DNA of 34,146 nt, from positions 1-34,146 of IMG/VR virus record IMGVR_UViG_3300047409_000201, one strand, 5' to 3'. This DNA is from a virus. Shown piece by piece: positions 8,835 through 27,442 of the stretch. The stretch's first letter is position 1. The number at the start of each line of letters is the position of its first letter. The notes under the pieces were generated by a model, which saw only the letters and a program-made list of their open reading frames with translations, searched no databases and was not told where the DNA came from. The position numbers and the translations under genes were made by a program.

Positions 8835-8842
8835 GTCGATAT
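8835..8842 (+). promoter_or_regulatory. GTCGATAT, variant late-promoter-like motif before terminase
   Basis: GTCGATAT matches the FliA -10 consensus GCCGATAA at six of eight positions and lies 11 nt before the GTG of the large terminase. It is a weaker member of the GTCGAATA family described in the findings. Confidence 0.35.
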
Positions 8843-8853
8843 TAACTCTTTAA

Positions 8854-10602
8854 GTGACCGTTGAAACGCTCTCGCCCGAAGACCTCAAGCTCGTCTATCG
8901 CGAATTCAGGGACCATCGCGCGTTCTGCCGTACGTCGCTCACCGTCGAAACGGAGGCGAAAACGCTCGTTCCGATGGACCTCACGCCGGGACAGGTGCGG
9001 CTTGAAGAAGGCATCAAACGTCAGCGCGATCGCGGGCTACCCGTTCGCATCATTTACCTGAAGGCGCGGCGCATCCACGCGACGACCGGCACCGCGGCGC
9101 GCTTCTTTCACGACACGGCGTTCGCCGCGGGCGTTCATACCGCCGTCCTCGCGCATGACGACAGGAGTACTCAGAACATCTTCGGCATATACAAACGCTT
9201 CCACGATCTCTACAGGCCGTTCGCGGGGCTGATCGGGCTCCCGCCGTCGCGCCTGCTCGCCGAACGCCTCGAATACGAATTCGCCGGCGACCCGGAATCG
9301 AGCTTCATTCAGGTCGCCACCGCGGGCTCGCGCGGCTTCGGGCGCTCGTTCCGGCTTACGAACGTGCATTTTTCGGAGTTTCCGTACTATCCCCATCAGG
9401 CTGAAACGCTCGGCGCGGTTATGGCCGCGGTTCCGAAGCTCCCCGACACGACGGCGATCATCGAAGGCACGGCCAAAACCATCGGCGACCCGTTTCATAC
9501 GATGTGGCAGCAGGCGATGGATACATCGTCGGACTCCGAATGGCTCGGGCTGTTCATGGGATGGTGGGAGCACCGATCGAACCGTCTGCCGCTCGCCGTC
9601 GCGCCCGATCGCTTTCAGGACTCGTTAAGCCGCGACGAACGCGAGTTAATGGCGCGGTTCGGGCTCTCGCTGGAACAACTCGCATGGCGCAGGTACGTCA
9701 TAGCAAACGACTTCTTAGGCGATACGGTACGTTTTCAGCGCGAACACCCCGCGACGCCCGAAGAAGCGTTTACAGCCTCGTCACGCAATCGTTTCAGTGT
9801 TCCCCATATCCAGGCCTTCCCGATTCAGCGCGACCCGATCGCCGGCGAACTGTACGCCTCGCAGGTCGGGACCGAATCGCGCATCGTCTTCCACGCGGGC
9901 GACCGCGGCGCGCTCCGCGTATGGCGCCGTCCCGAACGCGGGCGCTTCTACGCCGTGGGCGCGGACTGCGCGCAGGGGCTCGACGTCGCGCCGTCCGAAG
10001 GCCAGTCGGACCCGGATTACAGCGTCGGCCAGGTGATCGACCGCGACACCGGCGAACAATGCGCCGTGCTGCGGGCGCGCATGATGCCGGGAGAAACGGG
10101 GCGGTACATGGCGGCGCTCTGCCGCTGGTACAACATGGCGCAGATGTGCGGCGAACGGAATCCGGGCGGCGGCGGCGTCTCGATGCTCGAAGCGATGCTC
10201 AACGCGGACTATCCCGCGGGGCTCATCTACCATCGCAGCGTGACGCCCGATCAGGATCCGCAGGTGCGCGGCGATCGCATCGGATGGGACACGTCGGGCG
10301 TCTCGCGCCCGCTCTTAATCGGATACCTCGACGAAGCCATCAGACAGGGCGCGCTCATCATTCGCGACCCGATCACGCAGACGGAGTTGCTCACGTTCTG
10401 TATTAATCCGAAGGGCAAGGCCGAAGCCGTGCAGGGCGCGCACGATGACACGGTGATCGCGCTCGCGCTCGCGGTTGTGGTGATAATGCGTATGCCTCGC
10501 CCGGTTGCGTCCGTCGCGGGCGTCCGTCCGGTTGTGGGGAAGTACGGCGGACGTCCGCAGGCGGACGCCGACCGGCGCGGTGATCGCGTGCGGATTCGAT
10601 GA
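8854..10602 (+). CDS. terL: Terminase large subunit
   Basis: This 582-residue packaging motor protein has an N-terminal ATPase and C-terminal nuclease. A deviant Walker A occupies residues 70-79 (KARRIHATTG), Walker B lies at 167-174 (RLTNVHFSE) with the catalytic acid at E174, and the coupling region is near 202-207 (IIEGTA). The RNase H-like nuclease shows D371 (YAVGADCAQG), E434 (GERNPGG) and D531/D532 (AHDDTVIA). It would translocate DNA into proheads and cut concatemers. Translation starts at GTG 8854 without a ribosome site, behind a GTCGATAT motif. The 'ERNPGGGG' nuclease segment and length are typical of the family. Confidence 0.93.
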   Translation: MTVETLSPEDLKLVYREFRDHRAFCRTSLTVETEAKTLVPMDLTPGQVRLEEGIKRQRDRGLPVRIIYLKARRIHATTGTAARFFHDTAFAAGVHTAVLAHDDRSTQNIFGIYKRFHDLYRPFAGLIGLPPSRLLAERLEYEFAGDPESSFIQVATAGSRGFGRSFRLTNVHFSEFPYYPHQAETLGAVMAAVPKLPDTTAIIEGTAKTIGDPFHTMWQQAMDTSSDSEWLGLFMGWWEHRSNRLPLAVAPDRFQDSLSRDERELMARFGLSLEQLAWRRYVIANDFLGDTVRFQREHPATPEEAFTASSRNRFSVPHIQAFPIQRDPIAGELYASQVGTESRIVFHAGDRGALRVWRRPERGRFYAVGADCAQGLDVAPSEGQSDPDYSVGQVIDRDTGEQCAVLRARMMPGETGRYMAALCRWYNMAQMCGERNPGGGGVSMLEAMLNADYPAGLIYHRSVTPDQDPQVRGDRIGWDTSGVSRPLLIGYLDEAIRQGALIIRDPITQTELLTFCINPKGKAEAVQGAHDDTVIALALAVVVIMRMPRPVASVAGVRPVVGKYGGRPQADADRRGDRVRIR

Positions 10603-10605
10603 AAC

Positions 10606-10613
10606 GTCGAATA
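10606..10613 (+). promoter_or_regulatory. GTCGAATA motif, 7 nt before start at 10621
   Basis: The 8-mer is followed by seven bases and the GTG at 10621, which has no Shine-Dalgarno sequence. The layout fits the -10 element of a leaderless transcript. Confidence 0.5.
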
Positions 10614-10620
10614 CCCCGGC

Positions 10621-11124
10621 GTGACGCTCGAAGTTGTTCTCAGTCGGGAGGCGCTCGAATGGCCGGTACGTGTGGGCGCGATGCGTAAGGCGATGCACCA
10701 ATACGCGGCGTACGAGGGCGCGAAACGACCAGACCAGAACCAGGAACGGGGCGGCGAGGATCTCGACCCCTGGGATGAGGTACAGGCGGCGTGCGCGGAA
10801 TTCGCCGCGGCTGAGGCGCTCGGGCGCGTCTGGGCCGGCGACATCTACAAACGAGAGAAGACGATCGACATACCGCCCGATATCGAAGTGCGATGGACGA
10901 AGCACGAGCACGACGGGCATTTACTTATCTACAAAGAGGACGACGCGACACGGTACTACGTACTGGTAACGGGCTTTCTGCCGGCGTTCCGGGTTCATGG
11001 ATGGATCGACGGGAACGACGCGAAACGGCCCGAATTCCTGCGCCCGCTGCGTCGGGGCCGTCCGCCCGGCTACTTCGTTCCGCGCGAACGTCTCAGCGAT
11101 CCGCGCTTACTTCAGGTCTGGTAG
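10621..11124 (+). CDS. Widespread phage protein with possible nuclease-like fold
   Basis: The 167 residues match a widespread phage-associated hypothetical family I recognise by its pattern: AACAEFAAAEALGRVW, then a D-x(n)-EVRW strand (TIDIPPDIEVRW), then YYVLVTG, GWIDGNDAKRPEF and a C-terminal YFVPRERL. The order acidic helix, D strand and EVR strand recalls restriction-endonuclease-like folds (PD-(D/E)XK with Arg replacing Lys), so a DNA-cleaving or DNA-binding role is possible but unproven. It begins with GTG seven bases after a GTCGAATA motif and follows the terminase by 18 bp, suggesting a late, possibly packaging-linked function. Confidence 0.75.
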   Translation: MTLEVVLSREALEWPVRVGAMRKAMHQYAAYEGAKRPDQNQERGGEDLDPWDEVQAACAEFAAAEALGRVWAGDIYKREKTIDIPPDIEVRWTKHEHDGHLLIYKEDDATRYYVLVTGFLPAFRVHGWIDGNDAKRPEFLRPLRRGRPPGYFVPRERLSDPRLLQVW

Positions 11125-11143
11125 GTCGAACTCGCTCGCTCGC

Positions 11144-11151
11144 GTCGAATA
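11144..11151 (+). promoter_or_regulatory. GTCGAATA motif, 7 nt before start at 11159
   Basis: An exact copy of the 8-mer is followed by seven bases (ACGGGGC) and the ATG of the membrane protein gene, placing a transcription start at or next to the start codon if it acts as a -10 element. Confidence 0.5.
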
Positions 11152-11158
11152 ACGGGGC

Positions 11159-11350
11159 ATGTTCCCCGCATTTCTGATTCAGATCATCGTCGTCCTGATA
11201 ATCGTGGGCCTCATCCTGTGGGTCATCACGCAGATCCCGATGGACGCGACGATCGCGCGCATTATCCGCGTGGTCCTGATCGTCTGCGTCTGTATCTGGC
11301 TGCTGTACGTGCTCCTCGGCGTGACGGGCTCGCATCCGTTCGTGCGGTGA
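11159..11350 (+). CDS. Two-helix membrane protein, Thivi_2564-like (holin candidate)
   Basis: This 63-residue, very hydrophobic protein has helices at about residues 4-25 (FLIQIIVVLIIVGLILWVI) and 33-54 (ARIIRVVLIVCVCIWLLYVLL), joined by the short loop TQIPMDATI. The pattern resembles the small Thivi_2564 membrane family found in bacteria and phages. Its role could be holin-like or an uncharacterised membrane accessory. A GTCGAATA motif lies seven bases before the ATG, so it may have its own late promoter. It stands between an unknown nuclease-like protein and another small phage gene. Confidence 0.75.
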   Translation: MFPAFLIQIIVVLIIVGLILWVITQIPMDATIARIIRVVLIVCVCIWLLYVLLGVTGSHPFVR

Positions 11351-11375
11351 ACGGCGGCGCGGCGCGTGTCCGAAG

Positions 11376-11383
11376 GTCGAATA
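11376..11383 (+). promoter_or_regulatory. GTCGAATA motif, 9 nt before start at 11393
   Basis: An exact 8-mer copy in the 42-bp gap after the membrane protein gene. Spacing to the ATG is nine bases. An alternative GTG at 11387 would be only three bases away. Confidence 0.45.
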
Positions 11384-11392
11384 CAGGTGAGT

Positions 11393-11797
11393 ATGACCGC
11401 ACCGAAAACGCCCGTCCCCGTCCTTGTGATACCAGCGGCGCTCTGCGACGAATTCGGCGAACTCACGAAGCTCAAAGACGAATTCGCCCCCATCCAGGCC
11501 AGATACAACAAATGCCGCGAACGGCTTCAGGCGCTCGTCGCCGACGCCGACCCCGAAGCCGAATTCCGCGTCGAAGGCGAACAGTACCGCGTGCTGATCT
11601 CCGCGCGCGGGCTCGAACGACGCCTCGACATCCCCGCCGTCCGTAAGGAGCTCGGCGCGACGCGCTTCTTAGAAGTGGCGACCGTCACCATGAAGGCGCT
11701 CGAAGCGTACCTGCTCAAGCCCCAGATAGAGGCGCTCACGCTCATTGATCGCACCGGGCCCAGGACGTATTCGCCCGTCCCGATACGGAAGGGCTGA
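11393..11797 (+). CDS. Unknown phage protein, 134 aa
   Basis: It begins MTAPKTPVPVLVIPAAL. An upstream in-frame GTG (11366) would make the GTCGAATA motif coding, so ATG 11393 is preferred, though GTG 11387 is possible. The N-terminal half is helical (DEFGELTKLKDEFAPIQARYNKCRERLQALV), followed by a short beta segment (EFRVEGEQYRVLISARG) and a helical part with RKELGATRFLEVATVTMKALEAYL. The helical segment plus central YRVLISARG strand loosely recalls Gp157-type phage proteins, but no family was securely recognised. The stop codon overlaps the start of the next gene by one base. Function is unknown. Confidence 0.7.
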   Translation: MTAPKTPVPVLVIPAALCDEFGELTKLKDEFAPIQARYNKCRERLQALVADADPEAEFRVEGEQYRVLISARGLERRLDIPAVRKELGATRFLEVATVTMKALEAYLLKPQIEALTLIDRTGPRTYSPVPIRKG

Positions 11798-12027
11798 TGT
11801 CGAAGCAAATCTGTTCATGCGGGGGCGAGCGTACCCGATCGTGGCGCCCGTTCGGGTGGCTCCCGTTCTGCCGGCAATGCTTCGCGAAGCTCCCCGCCGA
11901 ACTCCGAACGGCGATCGAGCGCAGCGACCGCACCGATGAGGCGATCGCGCAGGCCGAAGAATGGCTCGCGATCGACCGCGCGAGACAGGCCGCGAAGCTC
12001 GCGGCGCTCGTGGTAACGAAGGAGTGA
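11797..12027 (+). CDS. Small zinc-binding protein, 76 aa
   Basis: The N-terminus has two Cys pairs, C6-x-C8 (QICSCGG) and C25-x2-C28 (LPFCRQCFAKLP), probably coordinating zinc. A helical C-terminal region (AIERSDRTDEAIAQAEEWLAIDRARQAAKLAAL) follows. The FCRQCFAKLP..LR.AI pattern is common in small phage proteins of unknown function. The ATG overlaps the upstream stop by one base, and the stop lies one base before the next gene, so these small genes form one translational unit leading to the tail fibre. Confidence 0.75.
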   Translation: MSKQICSCGGERTRSWRPFGWLPFCRQCFAKLPAELRTAIERSDRTDEAIAQAEEWLAIDRARQAAKLAALVVTKE

Positions 12028-12028
12028 C

Positions 12029-12355
12029 ATGCCGAACCCCGCGACGATGAGCATTTACAGGGGCGACGACATGGCGCCGACCGTCACCGTGACGGACGGG
12101 ACCGGCGCCGCGGCTAACCTCACCGGCTACACGGCGAAGGCTCAGATAAGAGTGACGCCCAACGACGTAAACCCCGTTGCGACGTTCGCCTGCTCGATCG
12201 CGGGCAACATCGTCACGATGGTTCTCACGCACGCGCAGACCGCGGCGCTCACGCGGAAAGAGTACATCTGGGACGTGCAGATCACGGACACGAACGGATG
12301 GATTACGACGCTGCTCGCGGGGCCGGTCGAAGTGACGTTCGACGTTACGCAGTAG
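12029..12355 (+). CDS. Beta-rich structural protein, BppU N-terminal-like
   Basis: The 108 residues read as a beta-sandwich: SIYRGDDMAPTVTVTD, NLTGYTAKAQIRV, a mid-domain with IVTMVLTHAQTAAL, and IWDVQITDTNGWITTLLAGPVEVTFDVTQ. This order (a turn with IYRGDD, then GYTA.AQIR, then WDVQI.D..G....L..G.v.v..DVT) resembles the N-terminal domain of baseplate upper (BppU-type) proteins and similar virion modules. It sits directly before the large tail fibre gene with a good ribosome site (AAGGAG, 12018-12023), so attachment of fibres to the virion is a reasonable inference. Confidence 0.7.
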   Translation: MPNPATMSIYRGDDMAPTVTVTDGTGAAANLTGYTAKAQIRVTPNDVNPVATFACSIAGNIVTMVLTHAQTAALTRKEYIWDVQITDTNGWITTLLAGPVEVTFDVTQ

Positions 12356-12362
12356 GGGGCAC

Positions 12363-15300
12363 ATGGCGCAGCAGCAGTTTAACGGCGACCTGAATAATCA
12401 GCCGAAGTATTTCGCGACGCTCTCGCAGGGTCCGAAGCTGTTCGCGGAGATCAATACGACGGCGGGACCGCAGGGACCGCCCGGACCGCAGGGACCGCCC
12501 GGACCGCAGGGACCGGCAGGCACGAACGGGACGAACGGCGCGCCCGGAGCAACGGGACCGCAGGGACCGCAGGGCGCGACCGGAGCGCAGGGACCGCAGG
12601 GCACGCCGGGAACTCAGACGCCGTGGACCTCGACGATCGACGCGGCGGATAACGCGCTCATCAACATTGATTACCTCCAGTTCAAAGACAACGGCCAGGG
12701 CGCGATTCTCACGAATAACGTGGCGCTCTCGCTCTCCAGCGGGCAGGCGATGTTCGTTGGAGCGAAGGGGAATATCTACGTCGAAACAGGGAGCCCGCTT
12801 AAACAGCGGCTCGCAATCGACAACCTCGGACACATCACGATCGCCGCGGCGGACGACGCCTCGCCTCCGCTCGCCGTCGCCGGCGTCATTCAATCCACGG
12901 CGGGCGGCTTCCGGTTCCCTGACGGCACGACGCAGACGACCGCGGCCACCGGCTCGGGCTCACAAACGCCGTGGGCCTCGACGATCGACGGCGCGAGCCA
13001 TATCCTTCAGAACGTCGGTTCTATAGGCGTCGGGACCGTTCCCGCGTATCCTCTCGATGTTCTGGCGACGTCCTCCCCGCAGGCGGTTTTCCGCGCGGTG
13101 TCGGTCGCGGGTCAGTACGTCGCCGTCCGCGTGGGCAATATTCTCGCGGTGTCGAGCGGCATCGACATCTACCACAACAATCCCGCAGACTACGGAATCA
13201 CGATCGGCAACGGTTTACCCGGCTCGGCTCCCGCGGCGCAGGGCGGCGATTTCGTGATCGGCGGATACAACCCGGTCGGCGGCGGAACGTGGCGTGAAAT
13301 TCTCCACGTCAGCAACAACGGATACCTGGGGATCGGGACCTCAAACCCGCTATACCCGTTTGATCTGTTCAACTACGCGGGCGTGGCTTATCCGTTCCGC
13401 GTGACGGGACCGGCCGGCACTTTCCCGAACGTCAGGATTACGGCATCGTCGGGTTATTGCAGCACCGTATATTGCTTTGACGACAGCCCTACAAAAGCGA
13501 TGTATGTCGGCATGGGCGTACCCGGAGGCCCCGTTCCGAACGGTGATCTTACGATTACCTCATTCGCTTCGTCGGCGTATATCGAACGGATGCGCGTCAC
13601 GTCGGGCGGGCTGGTAGGTATCGGCGACACGGCGCCCGCTACGCTGCTTTCGCTCTCGCTGAACACGACCGCGCCCCCCGCAACGCTCGCCGCGCTGAGT
13701 ACACCCCTCCATCTGACGGGCGCGGACGGCGGAAACTGCGAGCACTTTATCGACACTTTCGGGAACGGCGGGCCGATTGTTACGGGGCGCAGTTGCGCCG
13801 GCACGAACGCGGCGAAGACCGCATCGCAGAGCGGCGCAACGCTTCTGAGGATTCGCGGGATCGGCTACGGGGCGACCGGCTACGCGAACAATTCGCGGGC
13901 TCAGGTCCTCATGGTCACAACGCAGATATGGACCGACACCGTACAGGGCACAGCGATCGCGTTCTCAACGACGGCCAACAACTCGGTCACGATGACCGAA
14001 TACATGAGGCTCGACCAGGGCGGAAATTTAGGCCTTGGAAGCAACGCGCCGGCGTTTCCGCTCGACATCATCCGGGCGACGCCGCAGATCCGCGTGGCGA
14101 CCGCGACGACCGCCACGCCGCAGGTCCGCATCGGAGCGCCCGCGGCGAACGTCGCGCCCTTCGTCAACTTCTTCACGACGGACGCGCTGACGACCGGCGC
14201 GAGCGTCAGTATGGGCGCTCCAAGCGGCACGATGACACCGGGAGATCTGACGCTCTGCACGCTCACATCGAGCGCGTGGACGGAGCGCGTTCGCGTGCTC
14301 AACACTAACGGTTTCGTCGGCATCGCCACATCCGCGCCGTCCGCGCAGCTTACGGTCAGCGCAAACGCGACGGCGCTCCCGGCGAACACCACTTCGCCGA
14401 ATTTTCAGATCGGCGGGCAGGACGGAACATGGCCTGAGTCCTCGATTGACAGCTTCGGGAGCGCGGTCTATCCCGTCTTTACGTTTCGGAGCGCAGCCGG
14501 GACGAACGCGAGCAAGGCGGCGACCGGCTCGGGCGCGGTGCTCGGGGTGTTTCGCTGGATGGGATACGGCGGCGCGGCTTACGCGCAGTCGGCGCAGCTT
14601 CAGTGCGTCACGACAGAGGCATGGTCGGCCTCGGCGCATGGAACTGCGACGCTTTTCTACGTCACGAAAAACGGGACATCTGCAACGTTTGAGGCCATGC
14701 GGATCGACCAGTCTGGATACCTGGGGCTCGGGACTATCGCGCCGCAATGCCAGCTTGTCGTAAACGGCAACGCGGCGGCTCCGCCGGCTCTCGTGAACGG
14801 TAACTATGGCTCAATGCAGGCGTGCGGGGTGGATAACGGTTTCCCTGAAGTCGGCTTCGATGCGTTCGGGATCAACACATGCGGCCTTCTGACGTTCCGC
14901 ACGGCGAACGGAACGAATGCCGCGAAAACTCCCACCGGCAGCGGTCAGTATCTCGGACAGTTGCGGGGCTTTGGTTACGGCAACACCGGCTATGGCACGT
15001 TTGCGAGTGCGCTTATCGGCTTTCTTTCCACTCAGGCGTTTACCGACACCGCGAAGGGCTGCTCTATTGTCTTCCGAACGGTCCCGAACAACAGCGTGAC
15101 GCAGGCGGAAGTTGCGCGGATCGACCAGTCCGGGTACCTGGGGCTCGGCGTGACCGCGCCGGCGTATCAGCTTCAGTTATCGCTCGATTCCGCGGGCAAG
15201 CCCGCGACCTCGACGTGGACCGTCGCCTCCGACCTTCGGCTGAAGCGCAACGTAAGAGAACTCGTGGGCGGGCTCGCGAAAATCCTCCAGCTACGCCCCG

Positions 15301-15518
15301 TCGAAGCCGAATACAACGGTGTCGGGGGGACTCCCGAAGGGCTCCGCGTGTGTTCGTTCGTCGCGCAGGAAGTTCAGCCGGTCCTGCCGTACGCGGTGAC
15401 ATCGCACGAAGGCACGATCGGCGAAACTAAAACAGAACTGCTTGACCTGAATATGCACGAGATCATCATGCACCTGGTACTCGCGGTTCAGCAGCTCGCA
15501 GGCGCGAAGCCCGCGTGA
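12363..15518 (+). CDS. Tail fibre with collagen-like stalk, repeated shaft and S74 chaperone domain
   Basis: This 1051-residue protein has four parts. Residues 1-34 are an N-terminal attachment segment. Residues 35-83 hold 16 Gly-X-Y triplets (GPQGPPGPQ...), a collagen-like triple helix. Residues 84-945 contain about seven shaft units, each with a G(Y/N)LGLG..AP...L-type turn (DNA near 13026, 13320, 13608, 14021, 14311, 14715 and 15132). The C-terminus is a Peptidase_S74 intramolecular chaperone, SDLRLKRNV with S956 and K961 spaced as in the known Ser-Lys dyad. The domain should help trimer folding and then cleave itself off. Probable role is host receptor binding. It is followed by a small gene. 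Confidence 0.88.
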   Translation: MAQQQFNGDLNNQPKYFATLSQGPKLFAEINTTAGPQGPPGPQGPPGPQGPAGTNGTNGAPGATGPQGPQGATGAQGPQGTPGTQTPWTSTIDAADNALINIDYLQFKDNGQGAILTNNVALSLSSGQAMFVGAKGNIYVETGSPLKQRLAIDNLGHITIAAADDASPPLAVAGVIQSTAGGFRFPDGTTQTTAATGSGSQTPWASTIDGASHILQNVGSIGVGTVPAYPLDVLATSSPQAVFRAVSVAGQYVAVRVGNILAVSSGIDIYHNNPADYGITIGNGLPGSAPAAQGGDFVIGGYNPVGGGTWREILHVSNNGYLGIGTSNPLYPFDLFNYAGVAYPFRVTGPAGTFPNVRITASSGYCSTVYCFDDSPTKAMYVGMGVPGGPVPNGDLTITSFASSAYIERMRVTSGGLVGIGDTAPATLLSLSLNTTAPPATLAALSTPLHLTGADGGNCEHFIDTFGNGGPIVTGRSCAGTNAAKTASQSGATLLRIRGIGYGATGYANNSRAQVLMVTTQIWTDTVQGTAIAFSTTANNSVTMTEYMRLDQGGNLGLGSNAPAFPLDIIRATPQIRVATATTATPQVRIGAPAANVAPFVNFFTTDALTTGASVSMGAPSGTMTPGDLTLCTLTSSAWTERVRVLNTNGFVGIATSAPSAQLTVSANATALPANTTSPNFQIGGQDGTWPESSIDSFGSAVYPVFTFRSAAGTNASKAATGSGAVLGVFRWMGYGGAAYAQSAQLQCVTTEAWSASAHGTATLFYVTKNGTSATFEAMRIDQSGYLGLGTIAPQCQLVVNGNAAAPPALVNGNYGSMQACGVDNGFPEVGFDAFGINTCGLLTFRTANGTNAAKTPTGSGQYLGQLRGFGYGNTGYGTFASALIGFLSTQAFTDTAKGCSIVFRTVPNNSVTQAEVARIDQSGYLGLGVTAPAYQLQLSLDSAGKPATSTWTVASDLRLKRNVRELVGGLAKILQLRPVEAEYNGVGGTPEGLRVCSFVAQEVQPVLPYAVTSHEGTIGETKTELLDLNMHEIIMHLVLAVQQLAGAKPA
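12465..12611. repeat. Collagen-like Gly-X-Y repeat in the tail fibre
   Basis: Sixteen consecutive Gly-X-Y codon triplets, with GGACCGCAG and GGACCGCCC-type units repeated nearly exactly. The DNA repetition allows length change by slippage or recombination without loss of frame. Confidence 0.9.
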
Positions 15519-16613: not shown

Positions 16614-16936
16614 AGCGGATCGAGCCCCGCTTCGGTCATGTGCGCGATTGCGGCGTCGATCTCGCGTACCGTTCGGATCGCGCCCGCTTCGAGACGCAGC
16701 GCGGCGAGCCCTTCGGCGAAGTCTTCCGTTCCATGCGGCATCGCCTCCCACGCCGGCGACCCGATCCACTGAACGAGGTACGTCCGCATAATCGCAACGT
16801 CGCGCAGGGTCATCTCGCTCGGGCGCAGCAGGTACGTCTCGATAACGGGTTTCAGCTTGCCCGTCGTTTCATTCATCCAGAAGCCCGGCGCCTTAGCTGA
16901 AATGTGAGACGCCGACTCTTGCGAAGTCGAATTCAT
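16610..16936 (-). CDS. Conserved phage hypothetical protein, 108 aa
   Basis: The product begins MNSTSQESASHISAKAPGFWMNE. It matches the common phage family GFWMNETTGKLKPVIETYL, followed by MTLRDVAIMRTYLVQWIGSPAW, an LR..A..IRTVREIDAAI segment and a C-terminal GLDPL. The family is widespread in temperate phages of Proteobacteria and others but has no proven function. It is the first gene of the five-gene leftward cassette. Its start (16936) lies four bases from the divergent portal start (16941), and the portal's GTCGAATT motif falls within its first codons. Confidence 0.85.
   Translation of the reverse strand: MNSTSQESASHISAKAPGFWMNETTGKLKPVIETYLLRPSEMTLRDVAIMRTYLVQWIGSPAWEAMPHGTEDFAEGLAALRLEAGAIRTVREIDAAIAHMTEAGLDPL
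16926..16933 (+). promoter_or_regulatory. GTCGAATT motif, 7 nt before the portal start
   Basis: A one-mismatch copy of GTCGAATA is followed by seven bases (CATACGT) and the portal GTG at 16941. It lies inside the first codons of the opposite-strand gene, so a portal promoter would overlap coding sequence. Confidence 0.5.
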
Positions 16937-16940: not shown

Positions 16941-19079
16941 GTGGACGACCAGTCTAAGTATCAACTGAAATGGCCGGACGCCGAACTTTCCCGCATCGCG
17001 AACCGCATCCAGCAGGACTATCGTAACGCGCTTTCGGACCATAACCGGCGCATCCAGCGGTGGCGCGATTACTACCGGCGCTGGAGGTCCATCGCGGAAG
17101 CGCCGGCGATGGGCGAAGAAGACGCCTCGAATTTCCCGCTCCCGTACTGCAAGTGGAATATCTGGACCAAATGGAGCAAGGAAATGGACGGGCTTTTCGG
17201 CGATGACGCCGAAATCGTCGCCGTCCCGGTCGGACCGTCCGACTACCGCACCGACAAGAAGATATCGAGATACATGACGTGGCGGGTGTTCAACAGCATG
17301 AAGCTGCTGAACCCGTTCTGCGAATTCGTCCTGCGGAAACTGATTTTCGGCAAGTCGATCGCGTACGCGCCGTGGCGCGTCGATAAGTACGAGGTCAAGG
17401 GCAAGGAGATCACCGACTACGAGGGCGCGGACTTTCAACCGCTCTGGCCTGACGACTTTATCGCGCCCGCGGAAGAAGTAAAGACGCTCCACGAGTTTTC
17501 GTTCGTGATCCGGCGCGTGCGCGTCCGCCCGGACGACCTCCTCCAGGGCGAAGCGGACGGGCTCTACCAGAACATCACCCCCAATTGGGAGCGCATCGTT
17601 ACGTACGCGCAGCAGGGCACGATGCGCGACACCGAAGGCGAAGAAATCCGCCGCGAGAAGGACGACGCCGAAGGCATCGTTTACGAACGCCCGCAAAGCT
17701 CGGGCGAATGGGTGCTCGTTCTCGAATGGTACGGACGCTGGCGACCGCTCAAAGCGAAGAAGTCGGACGCCTCGCAGTGGGACTTCAAAGCGCGCGAGAT
17801 GCGCGAGCAGGAATTCGTCGTCCGCTATCTCTGGGATCTTCACATCGTTATCGGCGTGCAGGCGCTCGGCGACCTCTACCCGACCATGAAACACCGCCGT
17901 CCGTTCGTCGAAACGTCGATGTGTAAAGACGGCACCTACTGGAGCCCCGGCATGTGCGAAATGCTGATCGACCTCGAAGACGAACTCGCGGCCAATCACA
18001 ACCTCGCGACCGAAGGCGGACAGATGGCGATGAATCCGCCGATCGGCTACCGCCCCGCGGCCGGCGTCACGCCCGACACGATACGGCTCGAACCGGGCCT
18101 CGCGATCCCGCTCGACAACCCGCAGACCGACATAAGGGAAATCAAGATCACCACTTCGCTTGATCTGGCGACGTGGAAGGAACAGACGGTACTCGCCTAC
18201 GGGGAGAAGCTGACGGGCTTATCCGACTTGCAGATGGGCCGGCAGAGCGATCGCCCGAACGCGCCGCGGACCGCGACGCAGACGGTGAAGCTGCTCGAAG
18301 AAGGCAACGTACGTATCTCGCTCGACACGAAGGTGCTCCGCGAGGATATGTCCGCCGTCCTGACGCACATCTGGGAACTCGAATATATGTTTTCGTCGCC
18401 GGAAACGTTCTTCCGCGTGACCGAAGAAGACGCGGACGGCGCATTTCCGACCGCACAGGGCGGCTCGGTCCTCACGCTCGAAGACCGCGACGGGCGTTAC
18501 GACTTCCGCCTCGAATTCGCTTCGAGCGTCTGGTCGAAGGAGGTCAAGAAGGAACAGGCGCTCGCGCGCTACCAGCTCGATTTGCAGAACCCGCTTATCG
18601 TGCAGAACCCGCGGGCGCTCTGGTCAACGACGCGCGACGCGCATGAGGCGTTAGGCGATCCGAACTTCGCCGATCTCGTTCCCGAACCGCCCGCGCCCGA
18701 TATTCCGGTGGATCCGAAAGTCGAATGGACCCGGATGCTGCAGGGCGAAACGGTGCTCGTGAACCCGCTCGATAACGACGAACTGCACATGGTTCGCCAC
18801 GCGCAGGACTTCGGACGCGCGCAGGCGGACCCGAAGACCGACCGCGATTCGATCATGGCGCTCCACGCGCACTATCTCGCGCATCAGGCGCAACTCATTC
18901 AGAAGAAGACGCAGCAGGCGCTCGTCGAACAGGCGGTACAGGCCGCGGCGACCGGGCAACCGATCGGGATGCCGCATGGACTTTGGGGCAACCCGCCGAC
19001 GCAGCCCGCGGGCAACCCGCTCGCGACCGGGCCGAACATTTACTCGGGGCACCCTGAGAACCTCCACGGCGCTTCGTAA
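16941..19079 (+). CDS. Portal protein
   Basis: This 712-residue protein is recognised as a phage portal of the about 700-residue type. It begins MDDQSKYQLKWPDAELSRIANRI and carries the helical WRDYYRRWRS segment. The central clip/stem region includes WGRWRPL-like and GTYWSPGMCEMLIDLEDELAANHN. A long helical crown follows (QALARYQLDLQNP, then a Gln/Ala-rich C-terminal arm ending in PTQPAGNP). Twelve copies would form the ring at the capsid vertex through which the terminase packs DNA. GTG 16941 is the start. The stop overlaps the nuclease start by one base. Confidence 0.88.
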   Translation: MDDQSKYQLKWPDAELSRIANRIQQDYRNALSDHNRRIQRWRDYYRRWRSIAEAPAMGEEDASNFPLPYCKWNIWTKWSKEMDGLFGDDAEIVAVPVGPSDYRTDKKISRYMTWRVFNSMKLLNPFCEFVLRKLIFGKSIAYAPWRVDKYEVKGKEITDYEGADFQPLWPDDFIAPAEEVKTLHEFSFVIRRVRVRPDDLLQGEADGLYQNITPNWERIVTYAQQGTMRDTEGEEIRREKDDAEGIVYERPQSSGEWVLVLEWYGRWRPLKAKKSDASQWDFKAREMREQEFVVRYLWDLHIVIGVQALGDLYPTMKHRRPFVETSMCKDGTYWSPGMCEMLIDLEDELAANHNLATEGGQMAMNPPIGYRPAAGVTPDTIRLEPGLAIPLDNPQTDIREIKITTSLDLATWKEQTVLAYGEKLTGLSDLQMGRQSDRPNAPRTATQTVKLLEEGNVRISLDTKVLREDMSAVLTHIWELEYMFSSPETFFRVTEEDADGAFPTAQGGSVLTLEDRDGRYDFRLEFASSVWSKEVKKEQALARYQLDLQNPLIVQNPRALWSTTRDAHEALGDPNFADLVPEPPAPDIPVDPKVEWTRMLQGETVLVNPLDNDELHMVRHAQDFGRAQADPKTDRDSIMALHAHYLAHQAQLIQKKTQQALVEQAVQAAATGQPIGMPHGLWGNPPTQPAGNPLATGPNIYSGHPENLHGAS

Positions 19080-19702
19080 TGCAGAGTGGCAGTTACTACG
19101 ATCGGGAGTCGGCGCAGCATATCGACGGTTCGCTCATCTTCAAGACCCGCGAAGACCGCGAATCTGAGGCGTTCGTGGCGCGCGAGATCAGCGAAGCGTG
19201 GAAGTGCGAACTTCTGAGCTTCGGCGATCTGTGCCCGATCGACTGGTACGCCGTCCGCGACGGGCGGTTTGTCGGCGTGATCGAACTCAAGACGCGATCG
19301 CACGCGCGGAACAGATACCCGACCACGTTTCTGAATATGCGTAAATGGCTCGCTCTGACGATGGCAGAGCAATGGACCGGCGCGCCGGCGATTCTCGCCG
19401 TCCGCTTCACTGACGGGGTGTATTGGGCGCCGATTTCCCGGCTGAAGGCCCCTCTCACGGTGCGGGTGGGCGGCTGCACGCACATCGTTAAATCGCGCAG
19501 CGACGTTGAGCCACAGGTCGAAGTGCCGATAGAGGCGTTAAGGCCGCTCAGGAAGGAGACAGATGCCGAAATTTCTCGAAGACAAGCTGAAGAAGGAATA
19601 CCCGAACAACCCCTCGGCGGTGTACGGAACGATGAACAAGCTCGGCTATATGAGGGGCAACCAGGAGACGGCGGCGGGGCGCGCGGCGGAAGCGAAGCAT
19701 AA
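19079..19702 (+). CDS. PD-(D/E)XK nuclease
   Basis: The nuclease core is readable. An acidic helix (REDRESEAFVAREISEAW, residues 24-41) is followed by PIDWYAV (D55) and VGVIELKTRS (E69, K71), matching the PD-(D/E)XK catalytic pattern, and by a NRYPTTFLNMRKWLAL helix. It would cleave DNA in a metal-dependent manner. In the portal-capsid region such enzymes may assist packaging or act as anti-host nucleases. The last 46 codons overlap a complete, well-formed small gene (19563-19745) in another frame. The C-terminal tail (QPLGGVRNDEQARLYEGQ...) is of low complexity and is probably non-essential. Confidence 0.8.
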   Translation: MQSGSYYDRESAQHIDGSLIFKTREDRESEAFVAREISEAWKCELLSFGDLCPIDWYAVRDGRFVGVIELKTRSHARNRYPTTFLNMRKWLALTMAEQWTGAPAILAVRFTDGVYWAPISRLKAPLTVRVGGCTHIVKSRSDVEPQVEVPIEALRPLRKETDAEISRRQAEEGIPEQPLGGVRNDEQARLYEGQPGDGGGARGGSEA

Positions 19703-20338: not shown

Positions 20339-20344
20339 TGACTC

Positions 20345-20893: not shown

Positions 20894-20901
20894 GTCGAAT
20901 A
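20894..20901 (+). promoter_or_regulatory. GTCGAATA motif, 9 nt before start at 20911
   Basis: An exact copy of the 8-mer in the 28-bp gap between two genes, followed by CGACGGCGT and ATG. It would begin the transcript carrying the scaffold and capsid genes. Confidence 0.5.
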
Positions 20902-20910
20902 CGACGGCGT

Positions 20911-21177
20911 ATGGACTTTATTCAGGTCGCAGGCGGCACGACCGCCCTCAATCTCTCCCGCATCGACTCGGCGCGCCTCCTCCCCGATGGCGGACTCGCC
21001 CTCTCGATCGGACCGAACGCCTTCCATCTCGAACCCGGCGACGAAACAGACGCCGTTATCAAGCACTTCGGTCTGAAGACGAAGGCCGAAAGAGACGCCG
21101 AACACGAGAAGCGCGAAAAGAAGGCCGAAAAAGACGCCGAACACAACGACGCGAACAAGCCCGCTCTAAAGAAGTGA
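20911..21177 (+). CDS. Unknown protein with Lys/Glu-rich tail, 88 aa
   Basis: The N-terminal half (MDFIQVAGGTTALNLSRID, then GGLALSIGPNAFHLEPGDE) is beta-strand-like. The C-terminal half is a highly charged helix (KTKAERDAEHEKREKKAEKDAEHND) with repeated A-E-K-D-A-E-H elements. The tail could interact with nucleic acid or a partner. The start is ATG 20911, behind a GTCGAATA motif. The stop overlaps the next GTG. No family recognised. By position it belongs to the head-assembly unit. Confidence 0.65.
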   Translation: MDFIQVAGGTTALNLSRIDSARLLPDGGLALSIGPNAFHLEPGDETDAVIKHFGLKTKAERDAEHEKREKKAEKDAEHNDANKPALKK

Positions 21178-22255: not shown

Positions 22256-23182
22256 ATGTCCGTTAAGCGCAAGGTGAAAGTTCCCGACCCGGCAGAACTC
22301 GCGAATAAGCGCGTTCTCGCGGACATCAAAGCGCGCGACGAAGCGAAGAAGCACGAACAGGCGCTCGCGGCCGACCTCGGGCTCAATCTCAAGCCCCCGT
22401 TACCGGAAGCGGCGACCGCGGCGGAATTTCTCGCGGACGAATTCGAGCGCAGGGCGTTCGGCGATCAGGTCCCGACCTACACGCGCGTGCTCTACGGTCC
22501 CGACCCGCTTCTGACATCGTGCCCCGCGATGAAAGCGGCGATCGAGAAGGTCGGACTCGAAGAATACGCGAACGCGACCGCCGAAGCGATTCTGCTCAAA
22601 GAGTCAAAAGCCGTGACCGATCCGGTCATGCAGCGCGGGCTCATGGCGGCGATCGCGAAATTCGGCAAGGCCGAAGTAGCGCGGGCGTTCAAAGAGCGCA
22701 TTCTGAAAATCCCCGTCCGTACCGTCGAAGTCGAAGCCGACCGCGAAGACCCGCTCATATTCAGCCGTCCGCTTGAGGAGGCCGTCGAACGTTACGGTTC
22801 GCCCGGCATGGCGCCGAAGTTCCTTTCAGAGCGTTGCATCGCCGTCCTCGGGCTCCGCGGCTACCGCATCGTGACGGACGAGCGCGGCGACCCGGTGAAA
22901 GTCGGAACGCTGCTTATGGGCGAAATTCCGATTGCGATGGCGGAACGGCGTCGCCGGCATTGGGCCGAACAGTCCAACGAACTCATGGAGTCGATGGAAG
23001 ACGATTACCGCCAGTCGGTCGAATCGGAAGTGAAAAACGCGGGCCGCGGCTTCGCTTCGATCCTCACTCCGGGCGAAACGGTGCGATCGCAGGCGGCGGG
23101 CGATTTCCCCGACGACCCCGTTCTTACCGAAAGTTATCTGAACCGGAGCAGGGAAACCGGCTTCCGCGTCGAAAGAGGTTAG
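22256..23182 (+). CDS. Unknown head-region protein, 308 aa
   Basis: The product begins MSVKRKVKVPDPAELANKRVL and starts directly after the scaffold stop. It is mixed helical, with a basic N-terminus, PLLTSCPAMKAAIEKVG, SKAVTDPVMQRGLMAAIAKFG, a GYRIVTDERGDPVKVGTLLMGEIPIAMAERRRRHWAEQS segment and a C-terminal tail. The GEIP..MAERRR.HWAEQSNE stretch is shared with proteins of phage head modules that I know without function. A minor capsid or internal head role is likely by context. No catalytic motif is visible. Confidence 0.7.
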   Translation: MSVKRKVKVPDPAELANKRVLADIKARDEAKKHEQALAADLGLNLKPPLPEAATAAEFLADEFERRAFGDQVPTYTRVLYGPDPLLTSCPAMKAAIEKVGLEEYANATAEAILLKESKAVTDPVMQRGLMAAIAKFGKAEVARAFKERILKIPVRTVEVEADREDPLIFSRPLEEAVERYGSPGMAPKFLSERCIAVLGLRGYRIVTDERGDPVKVGTLLMGEIPIAMAERRRRHWAEQSNELMESMEDDYRQSVESEVKNAGRGFASILTPGETVRSQAAGDFPDDPVLTESYLNRSRETGFRVERG

Positions 23183-23185
23183 TAC

Positions 23186-23755
23186 ATGGCGAACCCAAAT
23201 AATCCGTTCGGCTTCCGTCCCGTCATCCGTTCGGGCGGCGCGCCGTTCAGCGTCTCCGAATACGCCAAGGCGCTCGCTGACCCGACGCCGATTTTCGCGT
23301 TTGACATGGTGGGGCACATCACAGGCGGCGTTGCTCCCCCCCTGCCTGAGAACCCGGCGTACACGCTCTCGCGCATCCAGGCGGGCTCGCTTCTGACGCC
23401 CGGTACGTCGCTCTGGCTCGGGCCGTCGCTCACTTTCGGCGCGGCATCGAAGGCGACCATACATCCGGTCTGCGATGAAGTCGATATCGTGATGATCGCG
23501 CAGTGTTCGGGCGCGGTCGCGATTACGAACGCCGCGCACGCGAACCTCAACGCGAACATCCTCAACACGGCGGGAAGCCTGCTCACGAAGCAGAGCGCGC
23601 ACCAGGTCAACTCGGCGGGCATCGCCGTCACCGCGGGCCTCGACCTCCGCATCCTCAATGTCGCGATGATTTCGCCGAACGTCGAAGGCGCGAACGCCAT
23701 CGTCGAAGTGACGATCGCTAAACACACCTTCGGACAGGGCGCAGCCGGAAGCTAG
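23186..23755 (+). CDS. Capsid decoration/stabilisation candidate, NPFGFRP type
   Basis: The product begins MANPNNPFGFRPVIRSGG, a start common to phage proteins encoded next to the major capsid gene. The 189 residues are beta-rich (SLWLGPSLTFGAASKATIHPV, DIVMIAQCSGAVAITN, LRILNVAMISPN). Such proteins are thought to decorate or stabilise the capsid. It lies 12 bp upstream of the major capsid gene with a GGAGCC ribosome-like stretch in between. Identification rests on the NPFGFRP start and gene order. Confidence 0.7.
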   Translation: MANPNNPFGFRPVIRSGGAPFSVSEYAKALADPTPIFAFDMVGHITGGVAPPLPENPAYTLSRIQAGSLLTPGTSLWLGPSLTFGAASKATIHPVCDEVDIVMIAQCSGAVAITNAAHANLNANILNTAGSLLTKQSAHQVNSAGIAVTAGLDLRILNVAMISPNVEGANAIVEVTIAKHTFGQGAAGS

Positions 23756-23767
23756 GAGCCATTTCAA

Positions 23768-24688
23768 ATGTTCATCAGAACGCTTTACCCGGATCTGTAC
23801 CTCGAATCAATGCTGCCCGCAATCGACGAGGTTGTGCAGACCAAATACGCGAGATTCCCCGAAGAATTTTCGGAAGTCTTTCGCATGGAAACGTCTTCGC
23901 GCGGCATCGAGCAGACGACCGAAATTACGGGCTTTGCTCAGATGGCCGTCGTCCCCGAAGGCGAGAACACACGCTATGACGAGGCCTTGCCCGCGTTCAA
24001 TAAAACCTACAACCACGCGCAGTATTCGCTCGGGTTCCGGGTTACGCGCGTGGCGATGGACGACGACAAATTCGGCGTCGTGCGTAAGCTCTCGACCGAA
24101 CTCGGCCGAAGCGCGTCTGAGACGAAGGAAGTCACCGCGGCGTCGGTGTTCAACAACGGCTTTCTGGTCGCCAACGGTCCCGATGGCGTCCCGCTGTTCT
24201 CGCTCGCGCATCCTCTCGTCGGCGGCGGCGTACAGGCGAACATGCTCTCGTATCCGTCCGATCCCGATGTGACCTCGATGCAGCTTGCGCTGACCGGGAT
24301 GCGAACGGCAGTCGATCACAGAGGGAAGCGCCAGCGCATTCCGCCCCGTAAAGCGATCTTCCCGCCACAGCTCGAATTCGTGGGCGCGGAACTGCTCGGC
24401 GGGCCCGATCGCCCGGACACGGCGAACCGCGCGATCAACGCTTTTCGCCGGCGCTCGGGGATGCCGTCGTTCGATACCTGGATCGTCTGGGACTATCTCA
24501 GCGACCCGCACGCCTGGTTCCTCGAAGCCGATCAGGAAGACACCGAACTCCGATTTTACTGGCGGGAAAAGTTCAACACGGTGCACGATCTGGACTTCGA
24601 CAGTCGTAGTACGAAGACGGCGGGCTGGATGCGGTTCTCGTGCGGCTTCAACGGCTTCTACGGCGTGTTCGCAGTCCCAAGCTCCTAA
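23768..24688 (+). CDS. Major capsid protein, Mu gpT-like HK97 fold
   Basis: This 306-residue protein begins MFIRTLYPDLYLESMLPAID. It carries gpT-type head features: RMETSSRGIEQTTEITGFAQM, a SLGFRVTRVAMDDD core strand-helix, FNNGF (128-132), SLAHPL (145-150) followed by a Gly-rich turn and N158ML, and a C-terminal YFYWREKFNTV-like beta segment. The Mu gpT family forms HK97-fold capsid shells. Scaffold and decoration genes upstream support the assignment. No protease gene is visible, so maturation might not require cleavage. Confidence 0.88.
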   Translation: MFIRTLYPDLYLESMLPAIDEVVQTKYARFPEEFSEVFRMETSSRGIEQTTEITGFAQMAVVPEGENTRYDEALPAFNKTYNHAQYSLGFRVTRVAMDDDKFGVVRKLSTELGRSASETKEVTAASVFNNGFLVANGPDGVPLFSLAHPLVGGGVQANMLSYPSDPDVTSMQLALTGMRTAVDHRGKRQRIPPRKAIFPPQLEFVGAELLGGPDRPDTANRAINAFRRRSGMPSFDTWIVWDYLSDPHAWFLEADQEDTELRFYWREKFNTVHDLDFDSRSTKTAGWMRFSCGFNGFYGVFAVPSS

Positions 24689-24694
24689 ACGGCT

Positions 24695-25177
24695 ATGCCA
24701 GCAATCACCAGATTTACCGGGCTCGTCGTGGCCGTTCCGGGCGGCGGCTCGAAGGGCCATTCAGCCTTCAAAAACATCAGCCCGCAGGTCGGAATCGACA
24801 TTCAGATTCCCACTAATCAGACGTTGCCCGCTCTCCAGATTTCGCAGCCTGACGGGACGGTGATCTATACGCTCGGTCCCGCGGCTCCGCTCGCGGCCTC
24901 GGGCGCGCTTCCGACGACGGGCGGCTCGTACGTCATCACGAAGACGGGCGCGGCGGCGGCGCTCACGCTCGCAGCTCCGACCGCGAACGGCGCGACGCTC
25001 ACGATCACATCGCAGACCGGCTTCGCGCACACGATCACGACGGCGGGCCTGCTCAGAACGGGCGCTGCTCCGTCGAACGTCGCGACCTTCGCCGCTTTCC
25101 CCGGCGCGAGCCTTACGCTGTTCTCGGCGAACGGCTTCTGGAACGTGATCTCACAGAACGGCGTAACGTTTACGTAA
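24695..25177 (+). CDS. Beta-rich virion protein, 160 aa
   Basis: The product begins MPAITRFTGLVVAVPGGG. It is low in charge and rich in Thr, Ala and Gly: SYVITKTGAAAALTLAAPTANG, TLTITSQTGFAHTITTAG, SLTLFSANGFWNVISQNG. The last segment (G..LTLFSANGFWNVISQ.GV) is common in phage tail or capsid surface domains. It follows the major capsid gene by six bases. A capsid surface or decoration role is likely by context. Confidence 0.7.
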   Translation: MPAITRFTGLVVAVPGGGSKGHSAFKNISPQVGIDIQIPTNQTLPALQISQPDGTVIYTLGPAAPLAASGALPTTGGSYVITKTGAAAALTLAAPTANGATLTITSQTGFAHTITTAGLLRTGAAPSNVATFAAFPGASLTLFSANGFWNVISQNGVTFT

Positions 25178-25181
25178 ACCG

Positions 25182-25547
25182 ATGTCCGCGCCGCTCAAGG
25201 TTATCCCGGTCACGATTCCCGCAGGCCAGTCGCTCTCTAACGGCGCGCTCGTGGGCGACTACCGGATTTCAGGCCTCCAGTTCCCGCCAGTGTGGGCGGC
25301 GGGCGGTATCTCGTGGCAGGCCTCGCTTGACGACGGCGCAACGTGGGTAGAAGTCACCGACGCGACCGGCGCGCCGATCGCGTACCCGACCGCGGGCGCA
25401 GCCAACACGTATTTCCTGCTCGACTCGACGAAATTCGTGGGGCTCACGCTCGTCCGAATCCGCTCGGGCACGCTCGCGGCTCCGGTCAATCAGGGCGCCA
25501 ACTGCGTTCTGCGGCTCGCCTGCGCGAAACTCAACCCGCTCTATTGA
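25182..25547 (+). CDS. Beta-sandwich virion protein, 121 aa
   Basis: The product begins MSAPLKVIPVTIPAGQSLSNG and reads as alternating beta strands (LVGDYRISGLQFPPVW, ISWQASLDDGATWVEVTDATG, FVGLTLVRIRSGTLAAPVNQG, CVLRLACAKLNPLY). The 'GA.W..V.D..G' and 'lR.RSGT...PVNQGA' features appear in small phage head-surface proteins. It is encoded four bases after the preceding structural gene and ends overlapping a convergent HNH gene by seven bases. Role inferred only from context. Confidence 0.65.
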   Translation: MSAPLKVIPVTIPAGQSLSNGALVGDYRISGLQFPPVWAAGGISWQASLDDGATWVEVTDATGAPIAYPTAGAANTYFLLDSTKFVGLTLVRIRSGTLAAPVNQGANCVLRLACAKLNPLY

Positions 25548-26350
25548 CGCATGTAGGCGAGGATTGCTTCGATTTCTTCGGGCGTCGCGTCTCGCTTCAG
25601 CACGTTGCAGCGATAGCAAATAACCCGAACGTTACCGTCTGTGTAGCCTTTGGTGTTGTCGCGCCGATCGAGAGAGGGAGAAAGAGGGCTCGGTCGCTTC
25701 AGGTTGCGCCGGACATAATCAAGTGTCTTGTTACAACAGGCGCACTCTGCCGGAAATGCCTTCCTGATCGCGTGTAGTCCGTCGCACTCCAGTCCAAGTC
25801 GCTTTGCCCTCACACGCGCGCCGCGAATCAGAATCGTCATACGGTTGGCGGGGTTCGCCTCGTACTGGCGGGTGTTCTCGGCCATCTGGGGCTTTCGGCC
25901 CTGGTAATACTTTTTCAATTTCTCGGCATTTTTCGCCCGATACTCGCGTTGCCGTTCGGCCATCGCTTCGCGATTCGCCTCGTGCCACTTTTTGTTGGTT
26001 TCGCGGACTCTTTCGGGATTTGCTTTTCGGTACGCCGCTGATGCCGCCCGCTGCTGTTCAGCGTGCGCGGCGTAGTAGGCGGCGCTGTGTTCCCGCTGTT
26101 TTTGGGGATCGCGCCTTTCGTATTGAGCCCGGATCTTCTCCGGATTCGCCTGCTTCCACTTCTGGTCTTTCCTGCGATCCGTTTCGCGGGCTTTTTCCGG
26201 ATTGGCCTCGCGCCACCGTTTGTCGCTCGCCTTCCGTTTTTCGCGGAACGCGGCAGGATCTTCCGCTATGCGTCGCGCCCTGCGTTTCCGCTCGGCTTCG
26301 ACCTTCTTTTGTTTCCTGATGGCTTCCGGGCTAGACTCTGATGCAGCCAT
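25541..26350 (-). CDS. HNH endonuclease gene inserted on the opposite strand
   Basis: The product begins MAASESSPEAIRKQKK. A long charged helical arm (residues 20-165) has repeated ANPEK/ANPER units (REANPEKARE, KQANPEKIRA, RKANPERVRE), a DNA-binding arrangement of many phage HNH enzymes. The C-terminal nuclease (about 180-265) shows ECACCNKT, LSPSLDRRDNTKGYTDGNV and CYRCNVLKRDAT, with C-x2-C zinc pairs and an Asp-Asn catalytic region. It is the only leftward gene in the capsid-to-tail block (16941 rightward), so it looks like a mobile free-standing homing-type endonuclease. Confidence 0.88.
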   Translation of the reverse strand: MAASESSPEAIRKQKKVEAERKRRARRIAEDPAAFREKRKASDKRWREANPEKARETDRRKDQKWKQANPEKIRAQYERRDPQKQREHSAAYYAAHAEQQRAASAAYRKANPERVRETNKKWHEANREAMAERQREYRAKNAEKLKKYYQGRKPQMAENTRQYEANPANRMTILIRGARVRAKRLGLECDGLHAIRKAFPAECACCNKTLDYVRRNLKRPSPLSPSLDRRDNTKGYTDGNVRVICYRCNVLKRDATPEEIEAILAYMRQ

Positions 26351-26476
26351 GCGTTCTGTTTCTCCAGATCGTGTGGTTAGGGCCGTGACGATGCTTCAAC
26401 ATCGGCGCGGTCCGCACCTTCAATTGTGCCGTTTTGTGAGTGCGCGGAACAAGTACGGGCGTACCGGAGGTCCGCT

Positions 26477-26484
26477 GTCGAATA
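26477..26484 (+). promoter_or_regulatory. GTCGAATA motif, 7 nt before start at 26492
   Basis: An exact copy followed by GACGGGT and the ATG at 26492. It lies in the 141-bp gap next to the leftward HNH gene and would restart late transcription for the connector and tail genes beyond the insertion. Confidence 0.5.
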
Positions 26485-26491
26485 GACGGGT

Positions 26492-27442
26492 ATGAGCACC
26501 TGGGGCCAGTTGAGGATGAGGCTGCAAGTTTCGTTCCCCGCCTTGCCTCTCGACCTTCTTGACGAATTTTTGGTTGGTCGTTACACTTCCGTCCTCTCGG
26601 CAACCGACTGGTACGGCCTCAAGGCGCACGCGACCATTCAGACGCTCGCGGCGTACCAGTCGCTCACGACCGAATCCGTGACGCTGCAGGTCGGCTCGGC
26701 GTCGGTCGCCGGCGTCGGTACGAACTGGACCGCGGCGGTTGTCGGTCTGAACTTCTATAAACCCGGCGACAACGTTGTTTACACCGTTCAGGGCTTCATA
26801 TCGCCCGTTCAGATCACGCTCGACCGTCCGTACGAAGGCATCTCGGGCAACGCTCCGGGCACGCCGTACGCGGGCGCGCCGTACGTTCTCATGCAGGACG
26901 TTTACCCGCTTCCCGACGACGCCCGCACGCCCGTAACGATCATCAACCCGGTTAACGGAAAACCGTTGCAGGAGTTTACGAAACAGGGCCTCGATATTTC
27001 AGCCGGAACGCGGGCCGCGATCGGGGATGTGTGGAGCTTCGCGATCGTGGGCGATACGACCGAAGACGCGCCCCCCGTTCTCCATCAGATCCGGTTCTAT
27101 CCGGCTCCGCAGTTCTCGCGCGGCTTCCAGCTCGAATATCACCGCGACCCGAACATCTTCACCGGCCAGAACACCTCCGCGTCGCCCCTCCCGTTCGTGA
27201 CGGACCTCGTTCTGACGGCGGGCGCACGCGCGGACGCCGCGACGCATCTCGGGATGATTTCGGCGGCGAAGTACGAAGCGGACTTCGAAAAGGAACTGTC
27301 GCGAATGCTTTTGGTCGAACATGCTGAACGGCGAAAAAAAGTCGCCTTCCGCATGGCGCCAAGGTTTACAAGACACCGATTGGCGCGCGTCGATCGCGCC
27401 CGCGGCCGTGGTTGGGGAAGCGGTCAGGGCGGTCCGTCCTAG
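26492..27442 (+). CDS. Head-tail connector or tail accessory protein, 316 aa
   Basis: The product begins MSTWGQLRMRLQVSFPALPLDLLDEFL. An N-terminal helical region (FLVGRYTSVLSATDWYGLKAHATIQTLA) is followed by a beta-rich part (SVTLQVGSASVAGVGTNWT, PVQITLDRPYEG) and a C-terminal helical region with LVLTAGARADAATHLG and a basic tail. The N-terminal helix plus 'G.gT.WT....G..f...' beta insertion is found in phage head-tail connector proteins. It follows a GTCGAATA motif and precedes two smaller adaptor candidates. The C-terminal RGRGWGSGQGGPS tail is probably disordered. Confidence 0.65.
   Translation: MSTWGQLRMRLQVSFPALPLDLLDEFLVGRYTSVLSATDWYGLKAHATIQTLAAYQSLTTESVTLQVGSASVAGVGTNWTAAVVGLNFYKPGDNVVYTVQGFISPVQITLDRPYEGISGNAPGTPYAGAPYVLMQDVYPLPDDARTPVTIINPVNGKPLQEFTKQGLDISAGTRAAIGDVWSFAIVGDTTEDAPPVLHQIRFYPAPQFSRGFQLEYHRDPNIFTGQNTSASPLPFVTDLVLTAGARADAATHLGMISAAKYEADFEKELSRMLLVEHAERRKKVAFRMAPRFTRHRLARVDRARGRGWGSGQGGPS

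Follow-up and report, generated by a model that had tools for sequence, protein, structure and literature searches.

Sigma factors of the FliA/WhiG (sigma-28) type recognise promoters in which a -35 element is followed by a -10 octamer, TAAAGTTT-n11-GCCGATAA in the case of FliA (PMC2859248). Phages are also known to carry sigma factors of their own: the late sigma gp55 of T4 acts at the late promoter TATAAATA (PMC3014915), and phiEco32 and 7-11 encode sigma factors with a TGTGATGTTATA-like motif (PMC4331800). In bacterial leaderless genes a TANNNT -10 box is found about 10-12 nucleotides (nt) before the start codon, which is thereby the start point of transcription (PMC3160421). Here we study a virus record of 34,146 bases (IMG/VR record IMGVR_UViG_3300047409_000201, in the following called the window), which carries a phage sigma gene at 7921-8589 and several copies of an eight-base box, GTCGAATA, placed directly ahead of start codons. 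According to a comparison with related phages, this sigma very probably redirects the host polymerase to -10-dominated late promoters which are fused to start codons and give rise to leaderless late messages.

With the FliA/WhiG group the system of the window shares the best match of its sigma domain 2, the bases G.CGA of the FliA -10 sequence GCCGATAA and a weak -35 signal at the same offset. However, the phage sigma has no domain 3, scores far under the family cut-off and has no flagellar role, and in place of the promoter TAAA-n15-GCCGATAA we find the box GTCGAATA or GGCGAATA with a -35 that is nearly absent. The likeness to T4 gp55 consists of a phage sigma for late genes and a -10-type box of eight bases where a -35 is slight or missing, but the boxes are unrelated, a domain-4-like region is present here, and nothing here points to a clamp or a gp33-like co-activator. 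With regard to the box-only late promoters of T4, the box dominates here and a weak -35 signal is present. Late mRNAs of T4 are as a rule not leaderless. For phiEco32 and 7-11 the promoters of the phage sigma were identified by repeated motifs of the extended -10 type ahead of structural genes; their motif, however, occurs in several copies per intergenic region and is not fixed to the start codon. The bacterial leaderless genes differ in that a housekeeping box is used in cellular genes, whereas here a dedicated phage box is tied to a phage sigma. Extracytoplasmic function (ECF) sigma factors also consist of domains 2 and 4 joined by a flexible linker, and the phage sigma passes the general model TIGR02937, but its domain 2 is nearer to FliA/WhiG and a GGAAC-type -35 is missing. 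In the literature searched we found no late regulon whose promoters are fused to start codons. Phage late sigmas are already known, and so are bacterial leaderless genes that follow a -10 box; the combination, together with a domain-3-less FliA-like sigma and a co-varying box, would be new.

The box in the window

On both strands of the window six exact copies of GTCGAATA can be found where 1.1 are expected, a number reached by none of 100 shuffled sequences. Five of these six are followed at 7-9 nt by an RTG that opens a frame of at least 60 codons (binomial p ~8e-8), whereas 8-mers with similar copy number are placed in this way before start codons at a rate of only 2.7%. Among the 4,395 8-mers of similar copy number in the window GTCGAATA ranks first for its tie to start codons.

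The sequence-only reading had proposed a set of seven sites, at 10606, 11144, 16926 and 26477 (7 nt before the start codon), 11376 and 20894 (9 nt) and 8835 (11 nt). All of these coordinates and spacings are correct, and six of the sites are retained as members. The boxes at 10606..10613 and 11144..11151 (both plus strand) precede GTG 10621 and ATG 11159 and are retained in a relative (L001). The box at 11376..11383 (+) lies ahead of ATG 11393 and has a purine at +7, which makes a 2-nt leader (GU-AUG) possible; the orthologue of the gene behind it has a GTCGAAT box in most relatives of the window's sigma group (S1). The same arrangement, with a purine at +7 and a possible 2-nt leader, is seen at 20894..20901 (+) before ATG 20911. 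At 26477..26484 (+) the box precedes ATG 26492 of a tail-region gene whose product starts with MSTWGQL. The orthologue of this gene has the box in four relatives (G006, G011, G019 and G043), has it as GGCGAATA in G029, and is leadered in G037. The sixth member, GTCGAATT at 16926..16933 (+) before the portal GTG 16941, is kept because about half of the portal genes in the other records have GTCGAAT or GGCGAAT at 7-9 nt.

The seventh site, GTCGATAT at 8835..8842 (+) ahead of the terminase start codon, had to be dropped because it has three mismatches to GTCGAATA and no counterpart in the relatives except G028, the only one with GTCGAATA ahead of the terminase. Two further matches do not belong to the set. 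The copy of GTCGAATA at 30417..30424 on the minus strand, which was not part of the earlier set, falls within coding sequence of the opposite strand and is probably a chance copy. The match GTCGAATG at 18720 falls within the portal gene and was not counted; it is found at the matching place in G002 and is probably dictated by the protein sequence there. Ahead of the sigma gene GTCGAATA is absent from both strands of the window, in line with what the sequence-only reading had noticed by eye.

Conservation of the motif in the phage family

The family was assembled by means of the terminase and comprises about 45 loci. Searches with the terminase gave about 42 relatives with identities of 53-98%, and in addition 14 distant relatives with 23-32%. 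In five phages GTCGAATA exactly 7 nt before RTG comes first among all combinations of 8-mer and spacing. Among 7-mers and spacings GTCGAAT 8 nt before RTG holds rank 1 in S1 with 10^-57, a figure which is inflated because the records are related, and it has rank 1 at the same place in a second sigma group, S2 (10^-13). In a third sigma group GGCGAAT is the top-ranked motif at the same spacing. The motif-bearing records contain 86 copies of GTCGAATA; for 52 of these an open frame starts after exactly 7 nt, where 1.1 would be expected. At the 7-nt place substitutions in box positions 1-7 are almost never seen, while at position 8 the order of preference is A > C > G > T. In total 108 non-redundant sites were collected; 75 of them have spacing 7 and the others 6, 8 or 9, and their flanks are unrelated.

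The copies of GTCGAATA without a start codon at 7 nt include apparent chance copies, and a few have a start codon 1-4 nt later. Three boxes of this kind (G002 14317, G009 9338 and G037 19415) are followed by a separate Shine-Dalgarno sequence and start codon, and such leadered copies would be as expected for a promoter. A first de novo motif search in the motif-poor phages found nothing; GGCGAATA was uncovered afterwards through the substitution table. Scanning the viral contigs with the pattern GTCGAATANNNNGGCATG gave mostly single chance matches and a few further records with several sites. A different repeat was seen in a distant terminase relative without the sigma (L100, IMGVR_UViG_3300010412_000089, 38% GC), which has CTTGGACT or its core 15 times, fixed 7 nt before RTG; this is possibly a repeated coding or promoter element.

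Linkage of the box to the sigma gene

The sigma gene immediately precedes the terminase in all close relatives that are sequenced up to this point. In the window this neighbour is the terminase large subunit at 8854..10602 (+; PHROG 2, 1.5e-18), which itself lacks a box. The 14 distant terminase relatives have neither a sigma gene beside the terminase nor the motif. In records where both sides are visible the 7-nt sites lie downstream of the sigma gene and on its strand. In G003 the block that runs from the portal to the internal virion protein has the opposite orientation to sigma and terminase, and its boxes share this inversion. In the comparison with related sigma-bearing phages, which the sequence-only reading had proposed, the motif recurs at fixed spacing and is tied to the sigma gene.

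The sigma protein

The 222 amino acid product of 7921..8589 (+) consists of a FliA/WhiG-like domain 2, a disordered linker and a domain-4-like region. It matches Sigma70_r2 of Pfam (3.6e-13), and among solved structures its domain 2 aligns over residues 39-116 with the FliA chain 9wsm (E 9e-21), including the RIRGA-D region 2.4 of FliA-like domains. With 64.7 bits it does not reach the cut-off of 189.6 of the FliA_WhiG family model TIGR02479, but it passes the general sigma-70/ECF superfamily model TIGR02937 (69.7 bits, cut-off 42.9). The AlphaFold2 model (mean predicted local distance difference test score, pLDDT, of 87) has helices at 7-123 and 149-216 with the disordered linker at 125-145. 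Domain 3 is absent from this model, and the alignment with WhiG skips the corresponding stretch. A fold search with the model retrieved sigma-28, WhiG and further sigmas; the TM-scores are low, since the two domains have no fixed position towards each other. No relatives of the sigma were found in 50,697 deposited phage records. A single-sequence search of the viral contigs gave no match, and a search with an alignment of four sequences gave 21 loci.

Within region 2.4 the window's sigma has a lysine at residue 115, whose counterpart in E. coli FliA is the R of LDELR according to the alignment; D112 and K115 presumably correspond to D81 and R84 of sigma-28. Most sigmas of the third group have R instead of K at this residue and, in addition, an insert ahead of a conserved EDM/EDL stretch. 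When box position 2 is compared with residue 115 in 29 sigmas, K115 goes with 82 T and 7 G and other residues with 3 T and 14 G (p 6e-10, a value which overstates the evidence for co-variation because the tree needs only two changes of residue 115).

Promoter anatomy and the predicted leaderless start

The clearest signal upstream of the box, in the 108 non-redundant sites, lies at -19 to -17 from it and is a weak base preference, with 0.17 bit at -19 and C depleted. TAAA of the FliA promoters has the equal offset (PMC2859248). The sequence-only reading was therefore right about a recognition dominated by the box but not about the lack of any shared -35, since a weak preference exists at the FliA position 19 nt upstream, and the box might not act entirely alone. 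At no offset from the box is a GGAAC k-mer of the ECF-type -35 enriched, nor is a FliA-type GCCGATA box enriched in the family.

If the -11A of a -10 element corresponds to A5 of the box, +1 would be the opening base of the start codon, which follows the box after 7 nt. For the aer promoter of E. coli a start 6 bp downstream from the octamer has been measured (PMC2859248), so that the 7-nt gap differs from this FliA case by no more than one or two bases. We propose that host core RNA polymerase together with the phage sigma reads late promoters in which GTCGAATA serves as the -10-type box, mainly through the box and with a weak -35 preference. Transcription would then begin at the opening base of the start codon and the mRNA would be leaderless, while a spacing of 9 would leave 2-nt leaders. 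The genes between promoters would be reached by read-through and have ordinary ribosome sites.

The ribosome sites of the genes agree with the earlier remark that the noted genes mostly lack Shine-Dalgarno sequences: none of the seven has a GGAG, GAGG or AGGA core in the Shine-Dalgarno zone. Over the family a core in the usual zone is present in 0 of 45 motif genes and in 107 of 587 other genes, a contrast that is partly forced because the box occupies this zone. A box is missing at the capsid gene, upstream of which purine-rich sites are often seen; this is consistent with internal genes that are read through and normally translated.

Weighing of the explanations

The phage-sigma-directed, mostly leaderless late regulon suggested by the sequence-only reading is favoured by this comparative evidence, because the 7-nt spacing is fixed at non-homologous genes of many phages with constant sigma linkage, because the sites are restricted to genes downstream of the sigma and are inverted with an inverted gene block, and because a sister motif exists in a sister sigma clade and Shine-Dalgarno cores are absent at the box genes yet present at the leadered exceptions. 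We lean slightly towards the more far-reaching view that the late regulon of this lineage is leaderless by construction, with a minimal domain-3-less sigma, a -10-dominated 8-base box whose spacing makes transcription start at the start codon, and co-evolution of box and sigma via residue 115 of region 2.4, where K would read T and R would read G at position 2. Several observations tell against the sigma-directed leaderless regulon: the association of K/R with T/G represents only about two independent changes on the tree, the spacings of 6, 8 and 9 mean that some messages may have very short leaders, several sigma-bearing members of the family have few or no recognisable boxes, and part of the Shine-Dalgarno contrast follows from the position of the box itself.

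The box resembles the FliA -10, and hosts of the group have many sigma-70 family genes (30 domain-2 matches in a Bryobacterales assembly), so a host sigma, FliA-like or housekeeping, could read the box while the phage sigma has another role. We consider this unlikely, as in the 7.1-Mb Bryobacterales assembly the motif with RTG at box spacing is near background (22 versus 9 in the reversed control), and the motif is confined to phages with the linked sigma and changes along with the sigma clade. An operator for another phage regulator which activates the late genes is very unlikely in our view: helix-turn-helix (HTH) proteins are indeed encoded in the window at 3725-4804 and 6935-7384 and the -35 signal is weak, but the site of an activator is expected upstream of a promoter and not at 7 nt from a start codon with no further element between the two, and here too the changes of the box track the sigma clade.

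A translation-initiation signal in the mRNA would explain why the box takes the Shine-Dalgarno position, with constant spacing to the start codon, in genes that have no Shine-Dalgarno sequence. To this explanation we give even less weight than to an operator, because some boxes without a start at 7 nt have a separate Shine-Dalgarno sequence and start (G002, G009, G037), and because the box is absent from most other genes of the same phages and is found only downstream of the sigma. Chance or coding constraint accounts for a few copies inside genes whose place is set by the protein, like 18720 and its counterpart in G002; for the motif as a whole its probability is negligible, and it is refuted by the 10^-57 in S1, by rank 1 in three sigma groups and by the 108 non-redundant sites with unrelated flanks.

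If promoters fused to start codons are indeed used, the late messages would skip Shine-Dalgarno-based initiation, which raises the question whether late infection favours leaderless translation. Box plus 7 nt could serve as an annotation rule for the true start, and the family would offer a clean promoter-specificity prediction for sigmas without a match among the deposited phage genomes searched. The natural K/R versus T/G switch might further provide a way to study how FliA-like sigmas read the upstream -10 region.

Host group and other genes of the window

One further terminase relative was found in a Bryobacterales (Acidobacteriota) assembly, and 11 of 257 Bryobacterales genomes contain one. 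In seven of the eight loci inspected (L269-L275) a sigma homologue lies beside the terminase, down to 35% terminase identity. This suggests Bryobacterales/Acidobacteriota as the host group of these soil phages. The distant Bryobacterales loci with 40-49% identical terminases and a sigma homologue have no recognisable box; the sigma-terminase pair is older than the GTCGAATA box.

The window encodes a tyrosine recombinase at 2214-3251 on the minus strand (Phage_integrase, E 1.3e-22), and therefore the phage is probably temperate. Two collagen-like repeat proteins at 12363-15518 and 32860-33900 (both +), the first of which ends in a Peptidase_S74 chaperone domain, are likely tail fibre proteins. 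Inside the late block an open frame of 269 amino acids without Pfam match lies on the opposite strand (25541-26350, -), and the box at 26477 that comes after it would drive the next late gene. Directly behind the portal gene a PDDEXK_14 phage putative endonuclease is encoded at 19079-19702 (+; E 5.9e-19).

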